Positions 13,701 to 50,779 of a DNA stretch of 64,000 nt are shown here, piece after piece. Made by a program: the position numbers and the translations under genes. The first letter of the stretch is position 1; each line of letters opens with the position of its first letter. The notes below the pieces were generated by a model. The model made no database searches and was not told where the DNA came from. It was given only the letters and a program-made list of their open reading frames with translations. The stretch covers positions 1 through 64,000 of the forward strand of contig JAFLUB010000002.1 in assembly GCA_022509025.1 (NCBI GenBank), in the 5' to 3' direction. Source of the DNA: Oscillospiraceae bacterium. Lineage in GTDB: Bacteria; Bacillota; Clostridia; UBA1381.

Positions 13701-14785
13701 CGTGGGTATATAATAAAGAGATAAGCGAAAATCTGCCGGTGTGGTGCGAAAAAATGTACGGATATGCCGGTTCGGGAGCTCAGGAATTCGCTGATATTTA
13801 TGAGATACCTTTCTACGATATTGAAACAGGCAAGCTTCTGTCTGATCCATGGGAAATTGATGACGACGGAGTAATAACAAAGTACAAAGGCAGCGATGAA
13901 AAACTTGTTATTCCTGATGAAATTCACGGTATAACCGTTACCGCCATCGGGAACAGCGCTTTTATGGACAATGAGACTATCGTAAGCGTAACCCTTCCGG
14001 ACACTGTAACGAGAATAGAGAGCTCCGGGTTCGGAGGATGTACGGCTCTGAAGATGTTTGACACAAATAAAGTAAAAACAATAGCCGATACCGCGTTTTA
14101 CGGATGTACAAGTTTAGAAGAGCTTATTTTAGGCGAAAACGTCACGAGTCTCGGAATGAGAATGTGTATTGAGTGCTATAATCTTAAAAAACTTGTAGTA
14201 CTCAACAGAGACTTGAATATAGGAGACCTTTGGAGATGGGAAAAAGGTATAGAAGAAATTCATGGCTATATAGATTCTCAGGCTAAGACATACGCTGATT
14301 TAAATGATATACCGTTTTATGATATTGAAACCGGCGATAGGATTATAACTGAATGGGTTATTGATGAAAACGGTGAGCTTTTAAAATATAACGGAAATGA
14401 AACAGATATTGTTGTTCCATCTGAAGTGGACGGAGCAGAAATAAAATACATAGGAAGCAAAGCGTTCGCAGGCAGCGATATAACCTCTATCATTTTGCCG
14501 GACAGTGTGAAATCAGTATATTACTATGCTTTTTCAGGATGTACTTCTCTTAAAGATGTAACCTTATCAAAAAGAATGAATAAATTAAATGATATTTTTT
14601 GGGCTTGTTCATCACTTGAAAAAGTAAGAGTGCCGTCAAGCATAACGGAATTGGAAAAAGATATTTTTGCGGACTGCCCTAACGTAACTCTTTATTGTAC
14701 GGCAGATTCTGCGGCGGAGGTTTATGCGAAAGAAAATGATATACCGTATGTGATAGATGAAACACTGATCGTTAGGGCAGATTAA
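10754..14785 (+). CDS. Rhamnogalacturonan lyase (PL11-like) with C-terminal LRR_5/BspA-like repeats
   Basis: 'QLEYLNRGTVAVKTKDGVFISWRLLGTE...DVYRGATKIA', 'YSPNDVTPADVDGDGEYELILKWEPSNS' typical of PL11; C-terminal 'LPDTVKEIGAGAFMGCRKLNGISLP' repeats; likely start GTG at 10754. Confidence 0.9.
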   Translation: MKKIISLLLSSSVIVSAAAVSAAPVRIADYNTPSQLEYLNRGTVAVKTKDGVFISWRLLGTENYGTAFDVYRGATKIATVSDRTNYIDSAVGSEYTVVPEGQPVSTGETVTVNSEQYITILLDRPESGTSLDGTEYTYSPNDVTPADVDGDGEYELILKWEPSNSFDSGKEAKYSGNVYVDCYEMDGTKLWRIDMGININAGAHFTQMAAYDFDLDGKAELAMKTAPGTKDGMGNFVSDASLIDGIINTDNDADYRHSEGKINDTAGRVLSGPEFYTVFQGDTGEALDTVYYPHPRGTVKEWGDNWGNRSERYLTGVAYLDGKTPSMLAWRGYYAKTTVTAFNLVDKRLIDVADFDTSKKGNSQYAGNGNHNLTVGDVDGDGCDEIICGALALDNDLSVLWCSGRGHGDALHLADYDPTHEGMEYFSVHEDYGGSKITGSTTGNDGQKHLGGMTLYDAASGSELFHEDSNSDQARGMMANVGYGDGYFELWGSGDYVSYGGDDVREVRYSPDSANFRIFWDGDTYDELFDGTGSSDRGSDVKISGKDGRIQSLRNVTTNNGTKNNAGLIADLFGDWREEIVMRGQDNESLLVYTTTIPTEHKLYTLMHDRAYRMQVAAQNTAYNQPPHISYYINEENDEKDMRKTAAYVTTVHDGITEVRTENLPEDKPGLEVNATNEKLTVTNRTGQKFNAVAYIVRYDGHTLTNVTKQDIEVPAKGYSGEIDAEVGDTVFLWDNNQKPLTDKLTVEPAPTAAPTPTPTPEPTPTPTPKPIPEFVVENGVLIEYHEIGGSVSTVKVPETVDGQTVTAIGDEVFKDLQATNIILPDTVKEIGAGAFMGCRKLNGISLPSGLEKLGEGAFSNCGIIGYSMKITLPDTLNEIAPNTFSGCGNLRLLELPAHLTKIGRYAFSGCGRLSRIEFPESLTEIGEYAFENCGTLSEIDTKNVETIGRSAFYSTGLKEVILGEPLKDIGRNAFAYANIETAWVYNKEISENLPVWCEKMYGYAGSGAQEFADIYEIPFYDIETGKLLSDPWEIDDDGVITKYKGSDEKLVIPDEIHGITVTAIGNSAFMDNETIVSVTLPDTVTRIESSGFGGCTALKMFDTNKVKTIADTAFYGCTSLEELILGENVTSLGMRMCIECYNLKKLVVLNRDLNIGDLWRWEKGIEEIHGYIDSQAKTYADLNDIPFYDIETGDRIITEWVIDENGELLKYNGNETDIVVPSEVDGAEIKYIGSKAFAGSDITSIILPDSVKSVYYYAFSGCTSLKDVTLSKRMNKLNDIFWACSSLEKVRVPSSITELEKDIFADCPNVTLYCTADSAAEVYAKENDIPYVIDETLIVRAD

Positions 14786-20623: not shown

Positions 20624-20835
20624 ATAAATTAATAGTTAACTACCCTGAGATTTCGCGTTAAAAAGCCTTTTTTTTACCAACAATTCTTATACGGGATACC
20701 TTCTTCGGTTATGGCGTATACGCCTCCTTTCCTTCGGGACTGCCAGTGGACATATAAAGTAACCGAGTGGTGACCCACCTGCATGTGCAGGTAGAAACTC
20801 GGCTTTCATAGACGGTTATCTTGGGGTTTTTATTT
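20624..20835 (+). ncRNA. Candidate structured ncRNA (6S-RNA-like closing stem; identity unproven)
   Basis: Promoter upstream; 10-bp closing stem ACCCTGAGAT(20642-20651)/ATCTTGGGGT(20817-20826); internal hairpin CCGAGT..ACCTGCA-TG-TGCAGGT..ACTCGG; no ORF. Confidence 0.5.
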
Positions 20836-27276: not shown

Positions 27277-27305
27277 TTGACAAACTTTTTTTGCTGTGCT
27301 AAAAT
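27277..27305 (+). promoter_or_regulatory. glnA promoter
   Basis: TTGACA-N17-TAAAAT. Confidence 0.8.
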
Positions 27306-27312
27306 GTAACGT

Positions 27313-27355
27313 GAGCAAAGGTGTTTCTTCCTGGGGGGAGAAGCGCCTTTTTTTC
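27313..27355 (+). promoter_or_regulatory. glnA leader attenuator with overlapping AAAGGU hexaloop hairpin
   Basis: GAGC-AAAGGT-GTTT hairpin overlaps the 5' arm of AGGTGTTTCTTC...GAGAAGCGCCTTTTTTT terminator. Confidence 0.65.
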
Positions 27356-27396
27356 TGAAAGATGATAAATATTTTAAGTATGTTCTTGAAAGGAAT

Positions 27397-28731
27397 GTGG
27401 ATACAATGACTAAACAGGATATATTGAATTTGGTTGAGGAGGAGGACGTCAGCTTTGTAAGGCTTCAGTTTACAGATATACTCGGAACAATGCGCAATAT
27501 GGCGATTACGACTTCTAAGCTTGAGGATGCGCTTGATAATGAGTGTATGTTTGACGGCTCTTCAATAAAGGGATTTGTGGGTATTGAGGAAAGCGATTTA
27601 TATCTTCATCCTGATCTTGATACATTCACTATTTTCCCGTGGCGTCCGCATCAGGGCAAAGTGGCAAGACTGATATGCGATGTGTATAAACCGGACGGCA
27701 CGCGCCTTGAAAGCGATCCGCGCCGTATTTTGCAGGACGTTGTCAAAGAAGCGGCAGATTTGGGATATACATTTGAAGTAGGACCTGAATGCGAGTTCTT
27801 CCTGTTCAACACGGACGAAAGAGGAAATCCAGTTATCGACCCGCATGACAATGCCGGATATTTTGACCTTGCCCCGCTTGATAACGGTGAAAACTGCCGC
27901 CGTGAAATATGCCTCACTCTTGAGGAAATGGGTTACGTGGTAGAATCTTCACATCACGAAATGGCGCCGGGGCAGCATGAAATAACCTTCCGCTATGATG
28001 ACGCATTGAGAACGGCTGACAGAATTGTTACGTTCAGAACAGTTGTTAAAACAATCGCAAAAAGAAACGGACTCCATGCAACGTTCATGCCGAAGCCGAT
28101 GGAGGGGCAGAACGGAAGCGGAATGCATTTTACAATGTCGCTGAAAAAGGACGGTAAGAATGTATTCTGCAATGAAACGGACAAGGGAAAGCTGTCCGAT
28201 ACCGCATATAAATTCATAGCGGGACTTCTGAAATACACCCCTGATATGGCGTGTCTTACAAATCCAACGGTAAATTCATATAAGAGATTTATCCCGGGAT
28301 ATGAAGCGCCGTGTTATATATCATGGTCGGAGAGCAACAGAAGCTTACTCGTAAGGGTCCCGTCATCAAGAAAAGGCAACGACGCACGCGTTGAACTGAG
28401 GTCGCCTGACCCCACAGCGAACCCGTATCTTGCAATTGCCGCGTGTCTTCGAGCAGGACTGAACGGCATAAAGAACAACGAAGAGCTTCCGCCGAGTATT
28501 GATGTGAATATCTATAAGCTGTCTGATAAGGAAAGAGAATATCTCGGCATAAAGAGTCTGCCGATAAGTCTTAACGAGGCAATAAGAATAGGAAGGAAAT
28601 CAGAGTTTATAGCAGAGCTTTTAGGAGCGAAATTTGCTGAGAGCTACTTTGCCGCGAAGGAAGAGGAATACGGAGAATACCGCTGCACTATCAATCAGTG
28701 GGAAATTGAGAAATATCTTATAGAATATTAA
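27397..28731 (+). CDS. glnA: Glutamine synthetase type I
   Basis: 'FDGSSIKGFVGIEESDLYLHPD', 'NGSGMHFTMSL', 'NPYLAIAACLRAGLNGI'. Confidence 0.97.
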   Translation: MDTMTKQDILNLVEEEDVSFVRLQFTDILGTMRNMAITTSKLEDALDNECMFDGSSIKGFVGIEESDLYLHPDLDTFTIFPWRPHQGKVARLICDVYKPDGTRLESDPRRILQDVVKEAADLGYTFEVGPECEFFLFNTDERGNPVIDPHDNAGYFDLAPLDNGENCRREICLTLEEMGYVVESSHHEMAPGQHEITFRYDDALRTADRIVTFRTVVKTIAKRNGLHATFMPKPMEGQNGSGMHFTMSLKKDGKNVFCNETDKGKLSDTAYKFIAGLLKYTPDMACLTNPTVNSYKRFIPGYEAPCYISWSESNRSLLVRVPSSRKGNDARVELRSPDPTANPYLAIAACLRAGLNGIKNNEELPPSIDVNIYKLSDKEREYLGIKSLPISLNEAIRIGRKSEFIAELLGAKFAESYFAAKEEEYGEYRCTINQWEIEKYLIEY

Positions 28732-28758: not shown

Positions 28759-29280
28759 GTGGAACGAGTTATACTGGCTTTTTCAAAGACAGAAACAGCC
28801 GATAAAATAAGAAGAATGCTTGACGGCAGCGCCTACGAGGTCTATGCAGTCTGCCACTCCAAAGCGGAGCTTCTGCGTTCCATTACGGATATAGACGATG
28901 TGCTTATAATCATGGGATATAAACTCCCGGACGCTGTCGCAGACGATGTTTTTGAGGATCTTCGCGATGGACAGAAGCTTATGAGTATAGTTAAGGCGGG
29001 CGCGCATGAGATATATAATCAGGATATCTTCGTTGTGACGCTACCCGTGAACAGGCAGATTCTTATAAATTCTATTGAAACATTTGTGGGAATTATCGAG
29101 AGGCGCAAGCATAGAGTTAAGCGTACTCCCGAGGAGGAAAAAATAATTATTGACGCGAAAGCGTATCTGATGGAAAATCATAGCATGACCGAGGAGCAGG
29201 CGCACAGGTTTATCCAGAAGAGAAGTATGGATACAGGCGCAAAATTTATTGATACTGCAAGGCAGATTCTCGGCAGGTAA
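28759..29280 (+). CDS. ANTAR-domain RNA-binding regulator with degenerate receiver domain
   Basis: C-terminal 'EEEKIIIDAKAYLMENHSMTEEQAHRFIQKRSMDTGAKFIDTARQIL' is ANTAR-like; downstream of glnA. Confidence 0.85.
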   Translation: MERVILAFSKTETADKIRRMLDGSAYEVYAVCHSKAELLRSITDIDDVLIIMGYKLPDAVADDVFEDLRDGQKLMSIVKAGAHEIYNQDIFVVTLPVNRQILINSIETFVGIIERRKHRVKRTPEEEKIIIDAKAYLMENHSMTEEQAHRFIQKRSMDTGAKFIDTARQILGR

Positions 29281-29307
29281 TACGAAAACAGGGAGATGAT
29301 TAAAAAA

Positions 29308-30150
29308 ATGCAGAAATTCAAATTCACAAAAATGCACGGGGCGGGTAATGATTATATATATGTAAACTGCTTCGAGGAAAAGGTGGAGGATATTAACGCG
29401 ACAGCCAAAGCCGTTAGCGACAGACATTTCGGTATTGGCTCCGACGGACTTGTGCTTATATGCCCGTCGGATAAAGCGGATTTCAGAATGGATATGTACA
29501 ACAGCGACGGTTCACAGGCGGAGATGTGCGGTAATGCTACGCGCTGCGTCGGTAAATATGTATATGACAGAGGACTTACCGATAAAACGCAGATTACGCT
29601 TGAAACACTCGCGGGAATAAAAATTCTTGACCTTAACGTAAAAGACGGAAAAGTAGAGAGCGTTTGCGTGAACATGGGTTCGCCTGAGTTGACGCCTGAG
29701 AATATTCCGATTGATTCACCGCTTGACCGTTTTATAAGCGAAAAAGTCGAGGTGGACGGTAAGGAATACGCTGTAACAGGTGTGAGTATGGGTAATCCTC
29801 ATGCTGTTACGTTTATTGACGATACCGACAGCCTTGAAATTGAAAAGCTCGGTCCTGAGTTTGAGAATCATAAGCTATTCCCTAAGCGAATCAATACTGA
29901 GTTTGCCCAGATTGTTGACAGAGGAACAATAAAAATGCGCGTCTGGGAAAGAGGCGCGGGCGAAACTCTTGCCTGCGGAACAGGCGCGTGCGCGACGCTG
30001 GTGGCGGCAAGTCTTAACGGACTTACGGACGATGAGGCGGATTTGATACTTCTCGGCGGCACGCTCCATATCCGCTGGGACAGAGAAGAAAACAAGGTAT
30101 ATATGACAGGTCCCGCAAAGTTTGTCTTTGACGGTGAAATAGAATTATAA
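29308..30150 (+). CDS. dapF: Diaminopimelate epimerase
   Basis: 'FTKMHGAGNDYIYVNCF', 'AEMCGNATRCVGKY', 'ETLACGTGACATLVAA'. Confidence 0.96.
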   Translation: MQKFKFTKMHGAGNDYIYVNCFEEKVEDINATAKAVSDRHFGIGSDGLVLICPSDKADFRMDMYNSDGSQAEMCGNATRCVGKYVYDRGLTDKTQITLETLAGIKILDLNVKDGKVESVCVNMGSPELTPENIPIDSPLDRFISEKVEVDGKEYAVTGVSMGNPHAVTFIDDTDSLEIEKLGPEFENHKLFPKRINTEFAQIVDRGTIKMRVWERGAGETLACGTGACATLVAASLNGLTDDEADLILLGGTLHIRWDREENKVYMTGPAKFVFDGEIEL

Positions 30151-30268
30151 TATAACTGCAAGGCAGCATCGTTGCCGTAGCGTTATGTTTCAATGTTCTT
30201 AAGGGTGTCCAAATTTTAATTTGGGTAACACCCTAAGGTTATTACAATAACAGAAAGGAAAAATAAAA

Positions 30269-31480
30269 ATGGCAAAGATTAACGATAATTATTTAAAACT
30301 GCCTGGCGCGTATCTGTTTTCAACAGTCGCAAGAAAGTCGGCTGAGTTCAGCGCCGCACATCCTGACAGAGAAATTATTAAGATGAGTATAGGCGATGTA
30401 ACAAAACCTCTTGCTCCCGCTGTTATTGAGGCAATGCACAAGGCGGTTAACGAGATGGGCACAGCGGAAGGCTTCCGCGGCTACGGACCTGAGCAGGGAT
30501 ATGATTTTCTGAGAGATAAAATTGTAGAAAAGGATTATAAGGCAAGAGGTATTGATATTGCTCCGGATGAAATTTTCATCTCAGACGGAGCAAAGTCAGA
30601 CTGCGGAAATATCGGTGATATTTTTTCAATAGATAATAAGGTTGCCGTATGCGACCCCGTGTACCCCGTATATGTTGACACAAATGCAATGGCAGGCAGA
30701 GCGGGCGAATTTGTCGGAGAACACTGGACTAACCTCTACTATATGCCATGCACTGAGGAAAACGGTTTCATGCCGTCAATCCCGACAGAGAAGGTGGATA
30801 TAATATATCTTTGCTTCCCGAATAACCCCACAGGCGTTGCCGCAACGCGCGAGCAGTTAAAGCCGTGGGTTGAGTATGCAAAGAAGAATGACGCGGTTAT
30901 TCTTTACGACAGTGCGTATGAGGCGTTTATAACAGACCCTGACGTGCCGCACAGCATTTATGAGATAGAGGGCGCAAAGGAAGTTGCAATTGAATTTCGA
31001 AGCTTTTCAAAGACAGCAGGCTTTACAGGTACACGCTGCGCGTACACGGTAGTGCCGCATGCTTTAAAAATTGACGGAACAGAGCTTAACAGCTTATGGA
31101 ACAGACGTCAGTGTACCAAGTTCAACGGTGTGCCGTATGTTATCCAGAAAGCGGCAGAGGCTGTTTATTCCGATGAGGGACAGAAGCAGACAAAGGAAGC
31201 TATTGCATATTATCTTGAAAATGCCAAGATTATCCGAGAAGCGTTAACGGAAGCGGGACTTACAGTATACGGCGGTGAGAACGCTCCGTACATATGGGCT
31301 AAAACGCCGGACAATATGAAATCATGGGAGTTCTTTGATAAAATCCTTGAAGAAGCGGGAGTTGTGACAACTCCGGGTTCAGGCTTCGGACCGAGCGGCG
31401 AGGGATACGTGAGACTTACGGCTTTTTCAACTAAGGAGAACACCATTAAGGCTATGGAGAAGATTAAGAAGATTTTGTAA
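30269..31480 (+). CDS. dapL: LL-diaminopimelate aminotransferase
   Basis: '[28 protein letters not shown]...[12 protein letters not shown]', '[22 protein letters not shown]'. Confidence 0.95.
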
Positions 31481-31509
31481 TTGACAAATCCTGTAGCTTG
31501 TAATAAAAT
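31481..31509 (+). promoter_or_regulatory. gltB promoter
   Basis: TTGACA-N17-TAAAAT. Confidence 0.8.
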
Positions 31510-31515
31510 ATATTG

Positions 31516-31590
31516 AGTTGAAACAAAGGCGTTTTGATTATGTGCATATCACTTTAGAGGGATATGTATATATTCAATACGCCTTTTCTC
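31516..31590 (+). promoter_or_regulatory. gltB leader attenuator with 9-bp hairpin and AAAGGC hexaloop overlapping terminator
   Basis: AGTTGAAAC-AAAGGC-GTTTTGATT hairpin; AAAGGCGTTTTGAT pairs with ATTCAATACGCCTTTT. Confidence 0.7.
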
Positions 31591-31614: not shown

Positions 31615-34600
31615 ATGGAGTATAACGGACTACCTGAAAAACAAGGTCTTTACGACCCGCAATTTGAGCATGACGCCTGCGGTATAGGTTGTATTGCCAA
31701 TATAAAGGGAAACAAGTCGCATAACATCATAAACCAGGCAATTCAGATATTGAAGAATCTCGCTCACCGCGGCGGTGTCGGCAGCGAACCGGACACGGGC
31801 GACGGCGCGGGCATTCTTATTCAGATGCCTCATGCGTTTATGAAAAAGGTATGCAAGAACGAGGGGATAAAGCTCCCAAAGAAAGGTGATTACGGCGTCG
31901 GTATGCTGTTTTTGTCACCTGACGAGGATACACGTGAGGAAAGCCTGAATAAGCTTACCGATATTATAAACCGTGAAAAACAGACGCTTCTCGGTATAAG
32001 AGAGGTGCCTGTTTATGAGGTGTGTATCGGTAACAGCGCAAGGGAGGCAATGCCGCATATTGTTCAGGTGTTTATAGGTAAGGGCGAAGAAATGAGCGCG
32101 GACGATTTTGAAAGACGTCTGTACATAATCGGTAAAATAGCCGAAAAGGAGATAAGAAAGAGCGGAAGCGATAATTATTTCTATTTTGCGTCCCTTTCTG
32201 CGAGAACTTTAGTATATAAGGGTATGCTCACGCCTGATCAGGTAAACGAATTTTATCTTGACTTGAAGGATGTGGACATGGAAACGGCAATCGCGCTTGT
32301 GCATTCGCGTTTCTCGACCAACACATTCCCGTCATGGGAAAGAGCGCATCCTAACAGATATATTATTCATAACGGAGAAATCAACACTATACGCGGTAAT
32401 GTAAACTGGGTAAAGGCGAGAGAAAGAATGTTTGCTACTCCTGAATTTGAGGGTGATATGGATAAAATTCTGCCTGTTATCAACGAGGACGGCTCTGACT
32501 CCGCAATGCTTGATAACTATTTGCAGTTCCTGCATCTTTCAGGCTTTTCTTTGCCGCGCGCGGTTATGATGACAATTCCGGAGCCGTGGGAGAATAACGA
32601 CAACATGGATCCTGAAATGAAATCATTCTATGAGTATCATTCATGTATCACAGAGCCGTGGGACGGTCCTGCTGCGGTCGCGTTCACTGACGGACGCTTT
32701 GTTGGCGCAACGTTAGACAGAAACGGTTTAAGACCGGCGCGTTACTATCTGACTTCAGATGATACGATTATCCTGTCATCTGAGGTTGGCGTTACTGATG
32801 TTGACCAGTCAAAGATTATAAAGAAAGAACGTTTGCATCCGGGTAAGATGCTTTTAATCGACACTGAAAAAGGTAAGATTATTTCCGATGAAGAAATCAA
32901 GAAATATGAAGCGGTGCATAAGCCGTACAGTAAGTGGGTAAAGCAAACACTTGTTGAGCTTCAGGACTTACCTTTAGAGACAAGCAAAAAGGGCGATACA
33001 TGGCATGACCTTGTTCAGCATTTAAAGGACGCGACAAAAGGAGTAAACGAGCATCTTATGCTTAAGCACTTTATCGCGCTTGAAAATATGTTCGTAAACC
33101 GTGAAAACGGAGAGGATACATTACCGCTTCTGACACGTCAGAAGATATTCGGCTACACATGGGAGGACGTTAACACAACGATTAAGTCAATCGTTGAGAA
33201 GTCGGATGACCCGATAGGAGCAATGGGTACGGATATACCGCTTGCTGTACTGTCAGAAAAGCCGCAGCTTTTATATAACTACTTCAAGCAGCTTTTCGCG
33301 CAGGTAACTAACCCGCCTATAGACGCGATACGCGAGCAGATTGTAACATCAACATATACATTGTTCGGTTGTGAGCAAAACCTTTTAACTTCATCTGAAT
33401 TGAACTGCCGTAAGGTAAGAGCGCTAAGCCCGATGCTTACAAACGAAGAACTGCAGAAATTAAGAAACATTGACCTTGAAGGCTTCAAATCCATAACTAT
33501 TCCGTCTCTGTTTAACAAAAACCAGGAAGACGATATGGAAATGGCTATGGAAACAATATTTGAGGCGGCTGACATAGCTATAGAGAACGGATATAATATC
33601 ATTATCCTTTCAGATAAGGGCGCAGACAGAAATAAAGCGCCTATCCCCGCGCTGCTTGTAGCTTCGGGACTTCATCATCACCTTATAAGGAAAGGTACGC
33701 GTATGAAGGTTTCGATAGTCCTTGAATCGGGCGAACCGAGAGAGGTACATCATTTTGCGTGCCTCATCGGCTACGGTGTAAACGGTGTAAATCCGTATAT
33801 GGCATACGAGGCTATAGAGAATCTTATCAATGAAAAACTTCTTGACTGTACTTATGAGGAAGGTGTAAAACGCTTTAATAAGGCTTGCACAAAGGGTATT
33901 GTCAAGGTTATGTCCAAAATGGGTATTTCAACAATACAGTCGTATCAGGGCGCGCAGATTTTTGAGGCGCTCGGCATTGCACAGAGTGTTGTTGAAAAGT
34001 ACTTCACAGGCACGACCACGCGTATCGGCGGTATGGGACTTGAGCATATCCAGAAAGAGGTGCTTTTGCGTCACAGCGAAGCATTTGATAAGGTGAGCGG
34101 CAAAAAGGCGCTTAAGACAGGCGGAGATTACAAGTGGAGAGCCAAGGGTGAATACCACATGTTTAACCCGGAAAGTATCTACAAGCTGCAAATGGCATGC
34201 CGCACGGGAGATTATAAGCTCTACAAAGAATATGCGCGTGAGATGGACGAACATCAGCAGCATCAGTGCACAATCCGCGGTATGCTTGACATTAAGACGA
34301 TTGAAAAGCCGATTGCAATAGATCAGGTTGAAAGTGTTGAGAGTATTGTAAAGCGTTTCAAAACCGGTGCGATGTCCTACGGTTCAATCTCGCTTGAAGC
34401 GCATGAGTGTCTGGCGATTGCTATGAACAGACTCGGCGGAAAGTCAAACAGCGGTGAGGGCGGCGAGAATCCGGAAAGATATATCCCTGACGAAAACGGA
34501 GACAGCCGTTCAAGCGCGATAAAACAAGTCGCATCGGGACGTTTCGGCGTACATATTCACTATTTGCAGAACGCAAAGGAAATTCAGATAAAGATGGCAC

Positions 34601-36306
34601 AGGGCGCGAAGCCGGGCGAGGGCGGACATCTGCCGGGCGGTAAGGTGTATCCGTGGATTGCAAAGGCTCGTCACTCCACGCCGGGTGTGGGACTTATTTC
34701 GCCGCCTCCGCACCATGATATATATTCAATAGAGGATTTGGCGCAGCTTATCCATGATCTCAAAAACGCTAATCGTGACGCGAGAGTTACAGTTAAGCTT
34801 GTTTCAGAAGCAGGCGTTGGTACAATCGCAGTCGGAGTTGCAAAGGGCAGAGCGGACGTTATACTTGTATCGGGCTATGACGGCGGTACGGGCGCTGCTC
34901 CAAAGACGAGCGTACGTCACGCCGGACTCCCGTGGGAGCTTGGAGTTGCTGAAACTCATCAGGCGCTTTTGATGAACAACCTCCGTAACAGAGTTGTTAT
35001 TGAAACTGACGGTAAGCTTTTAACAGGACGCGACGTTGCGGTAGCGGCGCTTCTGGGCGCGGAGGAATTCGGTTTTGCAACAGGTCCGCTGATTGCTATA
35101 GGCTGCGTAATGATGCGCGTATGTAATCTTGACACGTGTCCTGTCGGAGTGGCGACGCAGAGCCCGAAGCTAAGAAAGCGTTTTTGCGGTAAGCCGGAGT
35201 ATGTGGAAAACTTCATGAAGTTTATCGCGCAGGATTTACGTGAGTGGATGGCTAAGATAGGAGTTAAGACGGTTGACGAAATGATAGGTCATGTTGAAAG
35301 ACTCTCGCAGAAAACAACAGAGGACAACTGGAAAGCGAAGGAGGTTGATCTTTCATCACTTCTCTATCAGCCGAAAATCTGCTCAAACGACTATGAGCGT
35401 TATCATAATGAGATGCAGGATCATGAGCTATATAAGACGCTTGACATGAACACGCTCCTAAAGCTTTGCGAGCCAGCGATAAAGGACGGCAAGAAGATAG
35501 AAGCGAAGCTTGAAATCACGAATATAAACCGTGTCACAGGAACAATTGTTTCATCTGAAATTGCAAGAGCGCATGGAGAAAAGGGACTTCCGGCAGACAG
35601 CATAAAGCTGAGTTTTGTCGGAAGCGCAGGACAGAGCTTTGGCGCATTCCTTGCTCCGGGTGTGACAATGAAGCTTGAGGGCGACAGTAACGACTATATA
35701 GGCAAGGGGCTTTCGGGCGGTAAGATAATCGTTGTGCCGCCAAAAGAGGCACAGTTTGAACCGGGCGAGAATGTAATTATTGGTAATGTCGCATTCTACG
35801 GCGCAACGAGCGGCGAAGCGTATATATGCGGTAACGCTGGAGAGCGTTTCTGCGTAAGAAATTCCGGTATGACCGCCGTTGTCGAGGGTATAGGCGACCA
35901 CGGCTTAGAGTATATGACAGGCGGCTGCGTTGCGGTAATCGGTAAAACAGGCAGAAACTTTGCTGCCGGTATGTCGGGCGGTGTAGCGTATGTTTATAAT
36001 AAGGCTGGTGACCTCGAAAAGAACTGCAATAAGGAGCTTGTAAACTGTGAGGCGCTTTCGGATAAGGATGAGGCATTGCTGAAAGAAATGCTTCAGAAGC
36101 ATCTTAAGTACACAGACAGTGCCGCGGCGAAAGCCATCCTTGATAACTGGTCTGAAGAACTTAAATACTTTGTGAAAGTAATACCGAATGACTATAAAAA
36201 GGTTATAACTGTTCTTGACGAAGAACTGGAAAAGGGAACGGACAGAGAAGACGCAATGCTTATCGCATTTGAGAATGTTACCGGTAAGAAAGTAGAGATA
36301 GCATAA
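31615..36306 (+). CDS. gltB: Glutamate synthase large subunit
   Basis: 'HDACGIGCIANIKG', 'RFSTNTFPSWERAHPNRYIIHNGEINTIRGN', 'KPGEGGHLPGGKVYPWIAKARHSTPGVGLISPPPHHDIYSIEDLAQLI'. Confidence 0.97.
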   Translation: MEYNGLPEKQGLYDPQFEHDACGIGCIANIKGNKSHNIINQAIQILKNLAHRGGVGSEPDTGDGAGILIQMPHAFMKKVCKNEGIKLPKKGDYGVGMLFLSPDEDTREESLNKLTDIINREKQTLLGIREVPVYEVCIGNSAREAMPHIVQVFIGKGEEMSADDFERRLYIIGKIAEKEIRKSGSDNYFYFASLSARTLVYKGMLTPDQVNEFYLDLKDVDMETAIALVHSRFSTNTFPSWERAHPNRYIIHNGEINTIRGNVNWVKARERMFATPEFEGDMDKILPVINEDGSDSAMLDNYLQFLHLSGFSLPRAVMMTIPEPWENNDNMDPEMKSFYEYHSCITEPWDGPAAVAFTDGRFVGATLDRNGLRPARYYLTSDDTIILSSEVGVTDVDQSKIIKKERLHPGKMLLIDTEKGKIISDEEIKKYEAVHKPYSKWVKQTLVELQDLPLETSKKGDTWHDLVQHLKDATKGVNEHLMLKHFIALENMFVNRENGEDTLPLLTRQKIFGYTWEDVNTTIKSIVEKSDDPIGAMGTDIPLAVLSEKPQLLYNYFKQLFAQVTNPPIDAIREQIVTSTYTLFGCEQNLLTSSELNCRKVRALSPMLTNEELQKLRNIDLEGFKSITIPSLFNKNQEDDMEMAMETIFEAADIAIENGYNIIILSDKGADRNKAPIPALLVASGLHHHLIRKGTRMKVSIVLESGEPREVHHFACLIGYGVNGVNPYMAYEAIENLINEKLLDCTYEEGVKRFNKACTKGIVKVMSKMGISTIQSYQGAQIFEALGIAQSVVEKYFTGTTTRIGGMGLEHIQKEVLLRHSEAFDKVSGKKALKTGGDYKWRAKGEYHMFNPESIYKLQMACRTGDYKLYKEYAREMDEHQQHQCTIRGMLDIKTIEKPIAIDQVESVESIVKRFKTGAMSYGSISLEAHECLAIAMNRLGGKSNSGEGGENPERYIPDENGDSRSSAIKQVASGRFGVHIHYLQNAKEIQIKMAQGAKPGEGGHLPGGKVYPWIAKARHSTPGVGLISPPPHHDIYSIEDLAQLIHDLKNANRDARVTVKLVSEAGVGTIAVGVAKGRADVILVSGYDGGTGAAPKTSVRHAGLPWELGVAETHQALLMNNLRNRVVIETDGKLLTGRDVAVAALLGAEEFGFATGPLIAIGCVMMRVCNLDTCPVGVATQSPKLRKRFCGKPEYVENFMKFIAQDLREWMAKIGVKTVDEMIGHVERLSQKTTEDNWKAKEVDLSSLLYQPKICSNDYERYHNEMQDHELYKTLDMNTLLKLCEPAIKDGKKIEAKLEITNINRVTGTIVSSEIARAHGEKGLPADSIKLSFVGSAGQSFGAFLAPGVTMKLEGDSNDYIGKGLSGGKIIVVPPKEAQFEPGENVIIGNVAFYGATSGEAYICGNAGERFCVRNSGMTAVVEGIGDHGLEYMTGGCVAVIGKTGRNFAAGMSGGVAYVYNKAGDLEKNCNKELVNCEALSDKDEALLKEMLQKHLKYTDSAAAKAILDNWSEELKYFVKVIPNDYKKVITVLDEELEKGTDREDAMLIAFENVTGKKVEIA

Positions 36307-36412: not shown

Positions 36413-36432
36413 ACAGAAAGGAATAATTGAAT

Positions 36433-37887
36433 ATGGGAAAACCAACAGGATTTTTAGAATATAAAAGACAGCTTCCCGAGGACAGACCTCCGAAGGAAAG
36501 AATGAAGGACTGGGACGAATTCCATACGCATTTTGATTTGGCGTCATTGCAATTACAGGGCGCGAGATGTATGGATTGCGGTATTCCGTTCTGCCACGCC
36601 GGAAAGCAGGTGGGAAGAACATCAATTGGTTGTCCGCTTAATAACCTCATTCCGGAATGGAATGACCTTGTATACAGAGGCGATATGGACGAGGCATACA
36701 GGAGATTATCTCTTACGAATAACTTCCCTGAGTTCACGGGCAGAGTGTGTCCCGCGCTGTGTGAAGGCTCATGTACGCTCGGTATGCATGACCCTGCCGT
36801 TACGGTAAGAAATATTGAGTGTCATATAATAGACACCATGTTTGAAGAGGGCAAGGTTGAAGTAAGAATACCCGAAAAGTCAACAGAAAAGCGTGTTGCT
36901 GTTGTCGGCAGCGGTCCGGCAGGCCTTGCCTGCGCTGACCAGCTTAACCAGATGGGACACCGTGTGACGGTGTTCGAGAGAGCAGACAGAGCCGGCGGAC
37001 TTCTGATGTATGGTATTCCGAACATGAAGCTCGATAAAAAGGTTGTTGAACGCAGAGTTGAGCTTATGGAAAAGGAAGGTATAACCTTCAAACTGAATAC
37101 CGATATAGGCAAAAACTATCCGGCTGTAAAGCTTGTTAACGAGTTTGACGCGGTAGTACTTTGCTGCGGCGCAACGAAACCGAGAGCGCTTACTGTTGAG
37201 GGCGCAGATTTAAAGGGTGTGCATTACGCCGTTGACTTCCTGAAAGCTAACACAAAAAGCTTGCTTGATTCCAATCTTGAGGATAGAATGTTCATTAACG
37301 CCAAGGATAAAAACGTAATTGTTATAGGCGGCGGTGATACCGGTACAGACTGTGTCGGCACATCTATAAGACATGGCTGCGCAAGTGTTACACAGCTTGA
37401 GATTATGGCGGAGCTTCCTGAGGAAAGAGCGGCTAATAATCCGTGGCCTGAATGGCCCAGAATAAAAAAGACCGATTACGGTCAGGAGGAAGCTATAGAG
37501 CTGTACGGTCATGATCCGAGAGAGTATCTCACAACAGTCACGAAGATAGAAGCCGACGATAAGGGACAGGTAAAAGCTGTTCATACGGTTCAGGTTGACT
37601 GGTCAACAGGCGCTCCGGTTCCTGTGGAAGGTACGGAGCAGGTGAGACCGTGCGAACTGGTGCTTATAGCTATGGGCTTTGTAGGCCCCGAGCAGGAGCT
37701 TCTTTCACAGCTTACGCTTGAGACAGACCAGAGAAGCAATATTCTTGCGAATGAAGAAGATTATAAGACGAGTCTGAGGGGAGTTTTTGCGGCGGGTGAC
37801 TGCCGCAGAGGTCAGAGTCTTGTCGTATGGGCAATCCGTGAAGGACGCCGCGCGGCTGACGCTGTAGACGAGTATCTGATGAAATAG
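36433..37887 (+). CDS. gltD: Glutamate synthase small subunit
   Basis: '[31 protein letters not shown]', '[10 protein letters not shown]', '[17 protein letters not shown]'. Confidence 0.96.
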
Positions 37888-50435: not shown

Positions 50436-50779
50436 TATTTAATTATTATTTGTTATATTAATTTTTTTGAGGAGGTGGTATCTGTGCATTTTATGCAAAT
50501 TTGCGGATTAGATATAATTTTTTCTTTTTTATCGACCTCCGCTAAAACAGCCGTCTTAGACGGGCTTTAGCTGTATATAAACAGCAGAATTAACAATATC
50601 ATATTACACAACAAGCCGCTTCTTATGCGGCATACAACACACAAGGACGTTTATACAATAACCGAATTATCCTCGTTTATAGGGGAGGCGGTTTAATTAC
50701 AGTATCCATAGTTTACACATGTTGATGTGATTTGGAGTAAGGTAATTTTTATGTATTACGTTAGGAGTGTGTTATTTTT

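Follow-up and report, generated by a model that had tools for sequence, protein, structure and literature searches.

The DNA between dapL and gltB in the 64,000-nucleotide stretch analysed here (the window) carries a promoter, a short hairpin and an intrinsic terminator, and raises the question of whether an ANTAR antiterminator protein could control the glutamate synthase genes through one hairpin alone. In current models, an ANTAR dimer docks on a recruitment hairpin (P1) before stabilizing the hairpin that blocks termination, and the ANTAR antiterminators studied experimentally all use both P1 and P2 (PMC3369931, PMC8934654). The gltB leader and the similar leader of glnA, with an ANTAR gene encoded between them, are probably ANTAR-controlled transcription attenuators with a single hexaloop.

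Leader structures of gltB and glnA

The six genes of the cluster and the elements of the two leaders are listed in the table below. Nearly every one of the 38 loci examined keeps the order glnA-ANTAR-dapF-dapL-gltB-gltD (many contigs stop short of gltB), and about 35 family genomes share both this order and a C-AANGGY-G hexaloop/terminator unit. Throughout the family, the ANTAR gene is separated from gltB by dapF and dapL (window 29296-31480), which are lysine and peptidoglycan precursor genes.

Table. Genes and predicted leader elements of the glnA-gltB region, in window coordinates
Feature	Position	Strand	Basis
glnA promoter, TTGACA-N17-TAAAAT with extended -10 TG	27277..27305	+	sequence pattern
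glnA putative antiterminator hairpin, GAGC-AAAGGU-GUUU	27313..27326	+	sequence; plan conserved in the family
glnA predicted leader terminator, 15 bp and U tract	27317..27357	+	folding
glnA, type I glutamine synthetase	27397..28731	+	domain search
ANTAR antiterminator protein, pseudo-receiver	28759..29280	+	domain/profile search, alignment
dapF, conserved cluster member	29296..30150	+	domain search; family gene order
dapL (LL-diaminopimelate aminotransferase), conserved cluster member	30269..31480	+	domain search; family gene order
gltB promoter, TTGACA-N17-TAAAAT	31481..31509	+	-35 at 31481-31486, 17-nt spacer, -10 at 31504-31509
gltB putative antiterminator hairpin, AGUUGAAAC-AAAGGC-GUUUUGAUU	31516..31539	+	sequence, folding; stem covariation in homologues
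gltB predicted leader intrinsic terminator	about 31525..31587	+	folding; loop-arm covariation
gltB, glutamate synthase large subunit	31615..36306	+	PF00310, PF01645, PF04898, PF01493
gltD, glutamate synthase small subunit	36427..37887	+	domain search

The gltB promoter begins at the base immediately following the dapL stop codon (31481), and the exact pattern TTGACA-N17-TAAAAT is found twice in the window, before gltB and before glnA, against a chance expectation of 0.01. It is followed by a hairpin composed of AGUUGAAAC (31516-31524), the A1/G4 hexaloop AAAGGC (31525-31530) and GUUUUGAUU (31531-31539), with a stem of 9 bp, three of them G-U, and a folding energy of -5.0 kcal/mol. The whole leader has a minimum free energy of -31.3 kcal/mol (z = -7.4). 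The hexaloop itself opens the 5' arm of the terminator and, consequently, hairpin and terminator are mutually exclusive. The U tract of this terminator (UUUUCUCAU) is short and mediocre. In the glnA leader, the stem GAGC/GUUU comprises just 4 bp, two of which are G-U, and is weak alone, as folding of the isolated 21 nt fails to select it. The promoter and the 9-bp hairpin with its A1/G4 loop overlapping the terminator had both been proposed for gltB in a sequence-only reading of this DNA; the former is present at 31481-31509 and the latter is borne out by sequence and folding. The leader plan that this reading took glnA and gltB to have in common also holds, with the qualifications of the weaker glnA stem and the short gltB U tract.

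A search of the window with an explicit model (A1/G4 hexaloop, stem of at least 4 bp, loop within the 5' arm of a terminator) returned three matches, at glnA, at gltB and at 50739, where 0.13 are expected in Markov-1 sequence. The match at 50739, which has a stem rich in G-U pairs and precedes a sigma-factor-like gene, was taken as chance. An Rfam scan of the window returned only 6S RNA and tRNAs, with the two leaders matching no family; identification of the leaders as a T-box, a glutamine riboswitch or another known riboswitch is thus without Rfam support. The 6S RNA (RF00013, 77.5 bits) lies at 20639-20831.

In the proposed mechanism, the AAAGGC segment would by default pair with the downstream arm, forming the terminator and halting transcription before gltB. 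On shortage of nitrogen, probably sensed as glutamine, the ANTAR protein would bind the short 5'-terminal hairpin of the RNA and keep the loop out of the terminator, allowing RNA polymerase to read through.

Conservation and covariation of the leaders

Leaders of the family were collected by a rule that demanded the loop and a pairing terminator arm, with no stem requirement for glnA and gltB. By this automatic rule, 35 of the 38 usable glnA leaders and 17 of 28 gltB leaders have the C-AANGGY-G hexaloop within an arm of a terminator; in six additional gltB leaders the loop is recognizable by eye, accompanied by a terminator that is weaker or farther away. The loops collected are AAAGGU, AAAGGC, AAGGGC, AAUGGC and AAGGGU, with ACAGGC and AACGGC being rare. 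All 80 collected leaders have an A1/G4 hexanucleotide loop, a rule partly used in collecting them, and the leader alignment shows no variation at the closing C-G pair, A1, G4 or G5, which was again partly demanded by the search.

The stem and the terminator could be assessed separately in this alignment. Across the six-pair stem, 84.1% of cells are paired and both sides have changed in 82 cells, compared with 33.9 ± 6.5 (S.D.) after shuffling, and this covariation vanishes when the partner is slid by 1-3 columns. Some rows outside glnA and gltB had been picked with a stem filter and the count was therefore redone on the 52 glnA and gltB leaders, where 80.1% of cells are paired versus 72.4% with whole arms shuffled, a value of 80.1% being reached in 0 of 2000 shuffles. 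Loop positions 3 and 6 form Watson-Crick pairs with the terminator 3' arm in 64/80 and 65/80 leaders, respectively, as compared with 39.3 and 42.4 on permutation (0/5000 in both cases), where the arm was found via its pairing, with up to one mismatch tolerated, which favours matches. Kinship of the sequences inflates all such covariation counts, a concern limited by the sliding control and by the several unlinked genes represented. As the stem pairs and the loop-terminator arm both covary, the alignment argues that the antiterminator hairpin and the terminator are each maintained, as an attenuator requires.

These data bear directly on the reading of the leaders as constitutive partial terminators that are unregulated, their likeness to ANTAR hexaloops being incidental. 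The 5' arm of any terminator can fold into some local hairpin and the glnA hairpin is a weak one, both of which such a reading would accommodate; however, independent covariation is seen in the stem outside the terminator, a variable stem carries a loop that stays AANGGY, and the unit precedes functionally related genes, making constitutive termination highly improbable.

Departures from the common form were seen among the leaders. In the gltB leaders L034 and L051, the apical loop of the terminator holds a long GC-rich palindromic repeat (GGGGCGGTCATTGGCCGCC-like) that looks like the insertion of a repeat element, with the switch arms intact. The glnA leader of one family member (L064, genome G016) has the loop GAAGGU, a natural variant at A1.

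One hexaloop or two

The dual-hairpin motif of ANTAR targets was defined by Ramesh et al. in 2012, with eut, nasF and amiE among its cases and with targets that already include genes for P-II, ammonium transporters and glutamine and glutamate synthases; in vivo, EutV needs both hairpins as well as the A1/G4 bases (PMC3369931). Walshe et al. (2022) reported that an EutV dimer engages just one hexaloop at any time and reduced the minimal motif to one hexaloop, proposing P1 as a recruitment site and expecting single sites where a transcribing polymerase imposes no time limit (PMC8934654). A lone P2 is bound weakly by NasR, at about 12 µM (PMC7496416).

The position of the promoter gives the clearest indication of how many hairpins the family leaders can hold. 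A promoter was called in 34 glnA leaders, and in every one of them the stem starts 2-13 nt after the -10 box; the hairpin should thus be the first part of the RNA, with no space for a P1 ahead of it. Where the leader has room for it, an extra A1/G4 hexaloop was found upstream in 2 of 30 cases, against 2.2 expected by chance, and a second A1/G4 hexaloop within the terminator loop or downstream of it was likewise at chance level in both places. The arrangement that defines the Ramesh motif, P1 and P2 in tandem across a short linker, was not found in the family leaders beyond chance. The identical scan did detect P1 in the outgroup leaders L183 and L184, which served as a positive control. The classic dual motif is seen in an outgroup glnA leader, where UUGCGC-AAUGGA-GCGCAG is followed by GUACUC-AACGGC-GAGUAU overlapping the terminator, and in outgroup genome G076 the ANTAR gene adjoins dapF-dapL-glnA genes and the glnA leader has two hexaloops. 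Of the class-level glnA leaders passing the rule, these outgroup leaders are the only two, both from one family, with a P1; the majority of the rest have one hexaloop, some of them being long enough for an atypical P1 and the G230 match being doubtful. Single-hexaloop glnA leaders outnumber dual ones in this sample drawn from other families within the class. The suggestion that the target is a single hairpin is supported by the 2-13 nt gap and the chance level of upstream hexaloops, and comparison with the known two-hairpin motifs places the family apart from its outgroup, which keeps the dual form.

A canonical dual-hairpin target would still be compatible with these leaders if P1 had gone unrecognized, either with an atypical loop or in an RNA started farther upstream, as read-through from dapL would produce, among other routes. 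Every ANTAR antiterminator studied so far has P1 and P2 (PMC3369931, PMC8934654), roughly 30 of the 80 leaders (chiefly those of glnN, with some of gltB) have upstream room, five gltB leaders have a conserved upstream GATAACAAAATA, and at some gltB leaders the promoter is absent, making read-through likely. Against this stand the 34 of 34 promoter-called glnA leaders, the near-consensus promoter conserved family-wide, and the chance count of upstream hexaloops from a scan capable of detecting the outgroup P1. An overlooked P1 is accordingly rather unlikely. The conserved stretch, (A/G)GATAACAAAATA, lies between the -10 box and the hairpin, ~15-30 nt upstream, in gltB leaders L036, L039, L040, L041 and L047, and is no A1/G4 hexaloop.

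The single-hexaloop leaders of the family resemble the dual-hexaloop RNAs of Ramesh et al. in having an A1/G4 hexaloop and an overlapping, mutually exclusive terminator before nitrogen genes, and differ in that there is one hexaloop, placed at the extreme 5' end of the transcript, and no P1. An active ANTAR protein would most likely bind the first RNA to emerge, with the 5'-terminal site perhaps substituting for recruitment. The relation between regulator and target, an ANTAR protein acting on glutamine and glutamate synthase genes, is already known in kind; the departure from known systems, as judged from the leaders of many species, is that one hexaloop alone, at the 5' end, sits within a real terminator. 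With dozens of natural one-hexaloop leaders at the transcript start, the requirement for P1 becomes directly testable, and search models built on two hairpins would miss this class.

The ANTAR protein and a putative nitrogen regulon

The protein encoded between glnA and dapF contains an ANTAR domain (PF03861, 54.0 bits versus a curated cut-off of 27.3) and its profile matches Rv1626, EutV, NasR and AmiR. The position of the phosphorylated Asp54 of EutV is occupied by Gly53, with LVLMDIQMP of EutV aligning with LVIMGYKLP, and is Gly, Ser or Glu in 30 of 30 aligned family members. Since the phospho-acceptor is replaced in all of them, the alignment identifies the N-terminal domain as a pseudo-receiver, and the missing acceptor means that the nitrogen signal cannot be ordinary Asp phosphorylation. 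The protein shares with EutV the ANTAR domain, as recognized by sequence profile, whereas EutV has a phosphorylated receiver and needs both hexaloops. In a pairwise alignment, EutV residues Arg142 and Lys147, through which the second subunit reportedly contacts RNA (PMC8934654), correspond to Glu127 and Asp132; these replacements are only suggestive that the second-subunit contact, and hence the binding of a single hexaloop, may differ here. Counted against a single-hexaloop attenuator are the need of EutV for two hairpins, the weak binding of P2 by NasR, the weak glnA stem, Glu127/Asp132, the poor gltB U tract and the draft state of the genome.

The dead receiver raises the question of how nitrogen status is sensed. 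A receiver-like N-terminal domain devoid of a phospho-acceptor, followed by a C-terminal ANTAR domain, is also the arrangement of AmiR, to which the protein is likened by sequence. AmiR of Pseudomonas aeruginosa is held by AmiC; no amiC-like partner was identified in the glnA-gltB cluster. Glutamine, 2-oxoglutarate, P-II or glutamine synthetase itself are candidate signals, as the regulon described below combines makers and users of glutamine.

ANTAR genes have been connected with these targets before. The Clostridium saccharobutylicum cluster described by Stutz et al. in 2007 reportedly has the order glnA-nitR-gltAB. Its product NitR is given, in a later paper citing that work, as an ANTAR protein that induces the GS/GOGAT genes when nitrogen is limiting (PMC6316151, citing Stutz 2007), and an ANTAR gene of C. 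thermocellum has been proposed to act likewise in a paper that also cites nitR of C. acetobutylicum (PMC4676874). As far as these citing papers describe it, the NitR cluster, a co-regulated group of nitrogen-assimilation genes, resembles the present one in that an ANTAR gene is grouped with glnA and glutamate synthase genes, a likeness of gene content, and differs in that dapF-dapL intervene here between the ANTAR gene and gltB.

The ANTAR protein very probably holds the glnA and gltB leaders open, as several genomic observations suggest. Its gene is the sole ANTAR match in the 2.49-Mb draft assembly, which at 87.6% completeness may lack a further ANTAR gene or targets, and close homologues are found throughout the genus and family. 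Relatives without a close homologue mostly lack a close type I glnA too and retain glnN, and of the nine ANTAR-less genomes whose glnN start was located, none has a hexaloop/terminator unit before glnN. In two genomes with only a distant ANTAR protein the unit was likewise not found at the glnN leader, and G053, with a distant ANTAR gene, does carry it. The attenuators could instead answer another factor (an RNA-binding protein, elongation speed or a small molecule), with the ANTAR gene a chance neighbour. The degenerate receiver would suit such a factor; yet the loops follow the ANTAR A1/G4 rule with an invariant closing C-G pair, the glnN motif is missing in ANTAR-less genomes, the one ANTAR gene found sits in the cluster, and the leaders have no Rfam family match, and another factor is considered quite improbable. 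The sequence-only reading had the ANTAR protein coordinate glnA with gltB, and the single ANTAR match between the two genes, the motif at both of them family-wide, the wider set of nitrogen genes and the nine ANTAR-less genomes all favour it.

A search of 81 genomes with a strict pattern placed the unit before glnN (type III glutamine synthetase) in 18 ANTAR-bearing genomes, and also before glnK-amtB, gatCAB, a lone P-II gene and a putrescine aminotransferase-aldehyde dehydrogenase pair; recurrent matches were chosen for retrieval, making this list an incomplete and biased sample. The members found in the window's own genome are glnA, gltBD, glnK-amtB, gatCAB and a purF. They were picked by stem, terminator and context, and relaxed motif scans of this genome gave no excess over a reversed-pattern control.

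One ANTAR protein acting at these five loci would constitute a single regulator of a glutamine-linked regulon. We infer ANTAR binding, antitermination and the nitrogen signal from sequence data. With moderate confidence, we propose that a whole clade of Clostridia has an ANTAR switch of one hexaloop, placed at the very start of the RNA and free of P1, and that a pseudo-receiver protein catches this first RNA, giving a phosphorylation-free, glutamine-linked regulon of glnA, gltBD, glnK-amtB, gatCAB, purF, glnN and putrescine aminotransferase genes.

The individual units of the window's genome vary in form. The purF unit (contig C33) is GAAC-AAAGGC-GUUC; purF was rejected as a family-wide target, the unit preceding only this copy and that of G023 among 30 checked. 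The gatCAB unit (contig C7) is UACAAC-AAAGAC-GUUGUA and was the single addition from a scan of this genome for AANGAY loops. Before glnK-amtB (contig C10, minus strand), two units stand in tandem at 14632-14668 and 14550-14589, 42 nt apart (14550-14668 being 4051-4169 of L103), and such serial attenuators would sharpen control.
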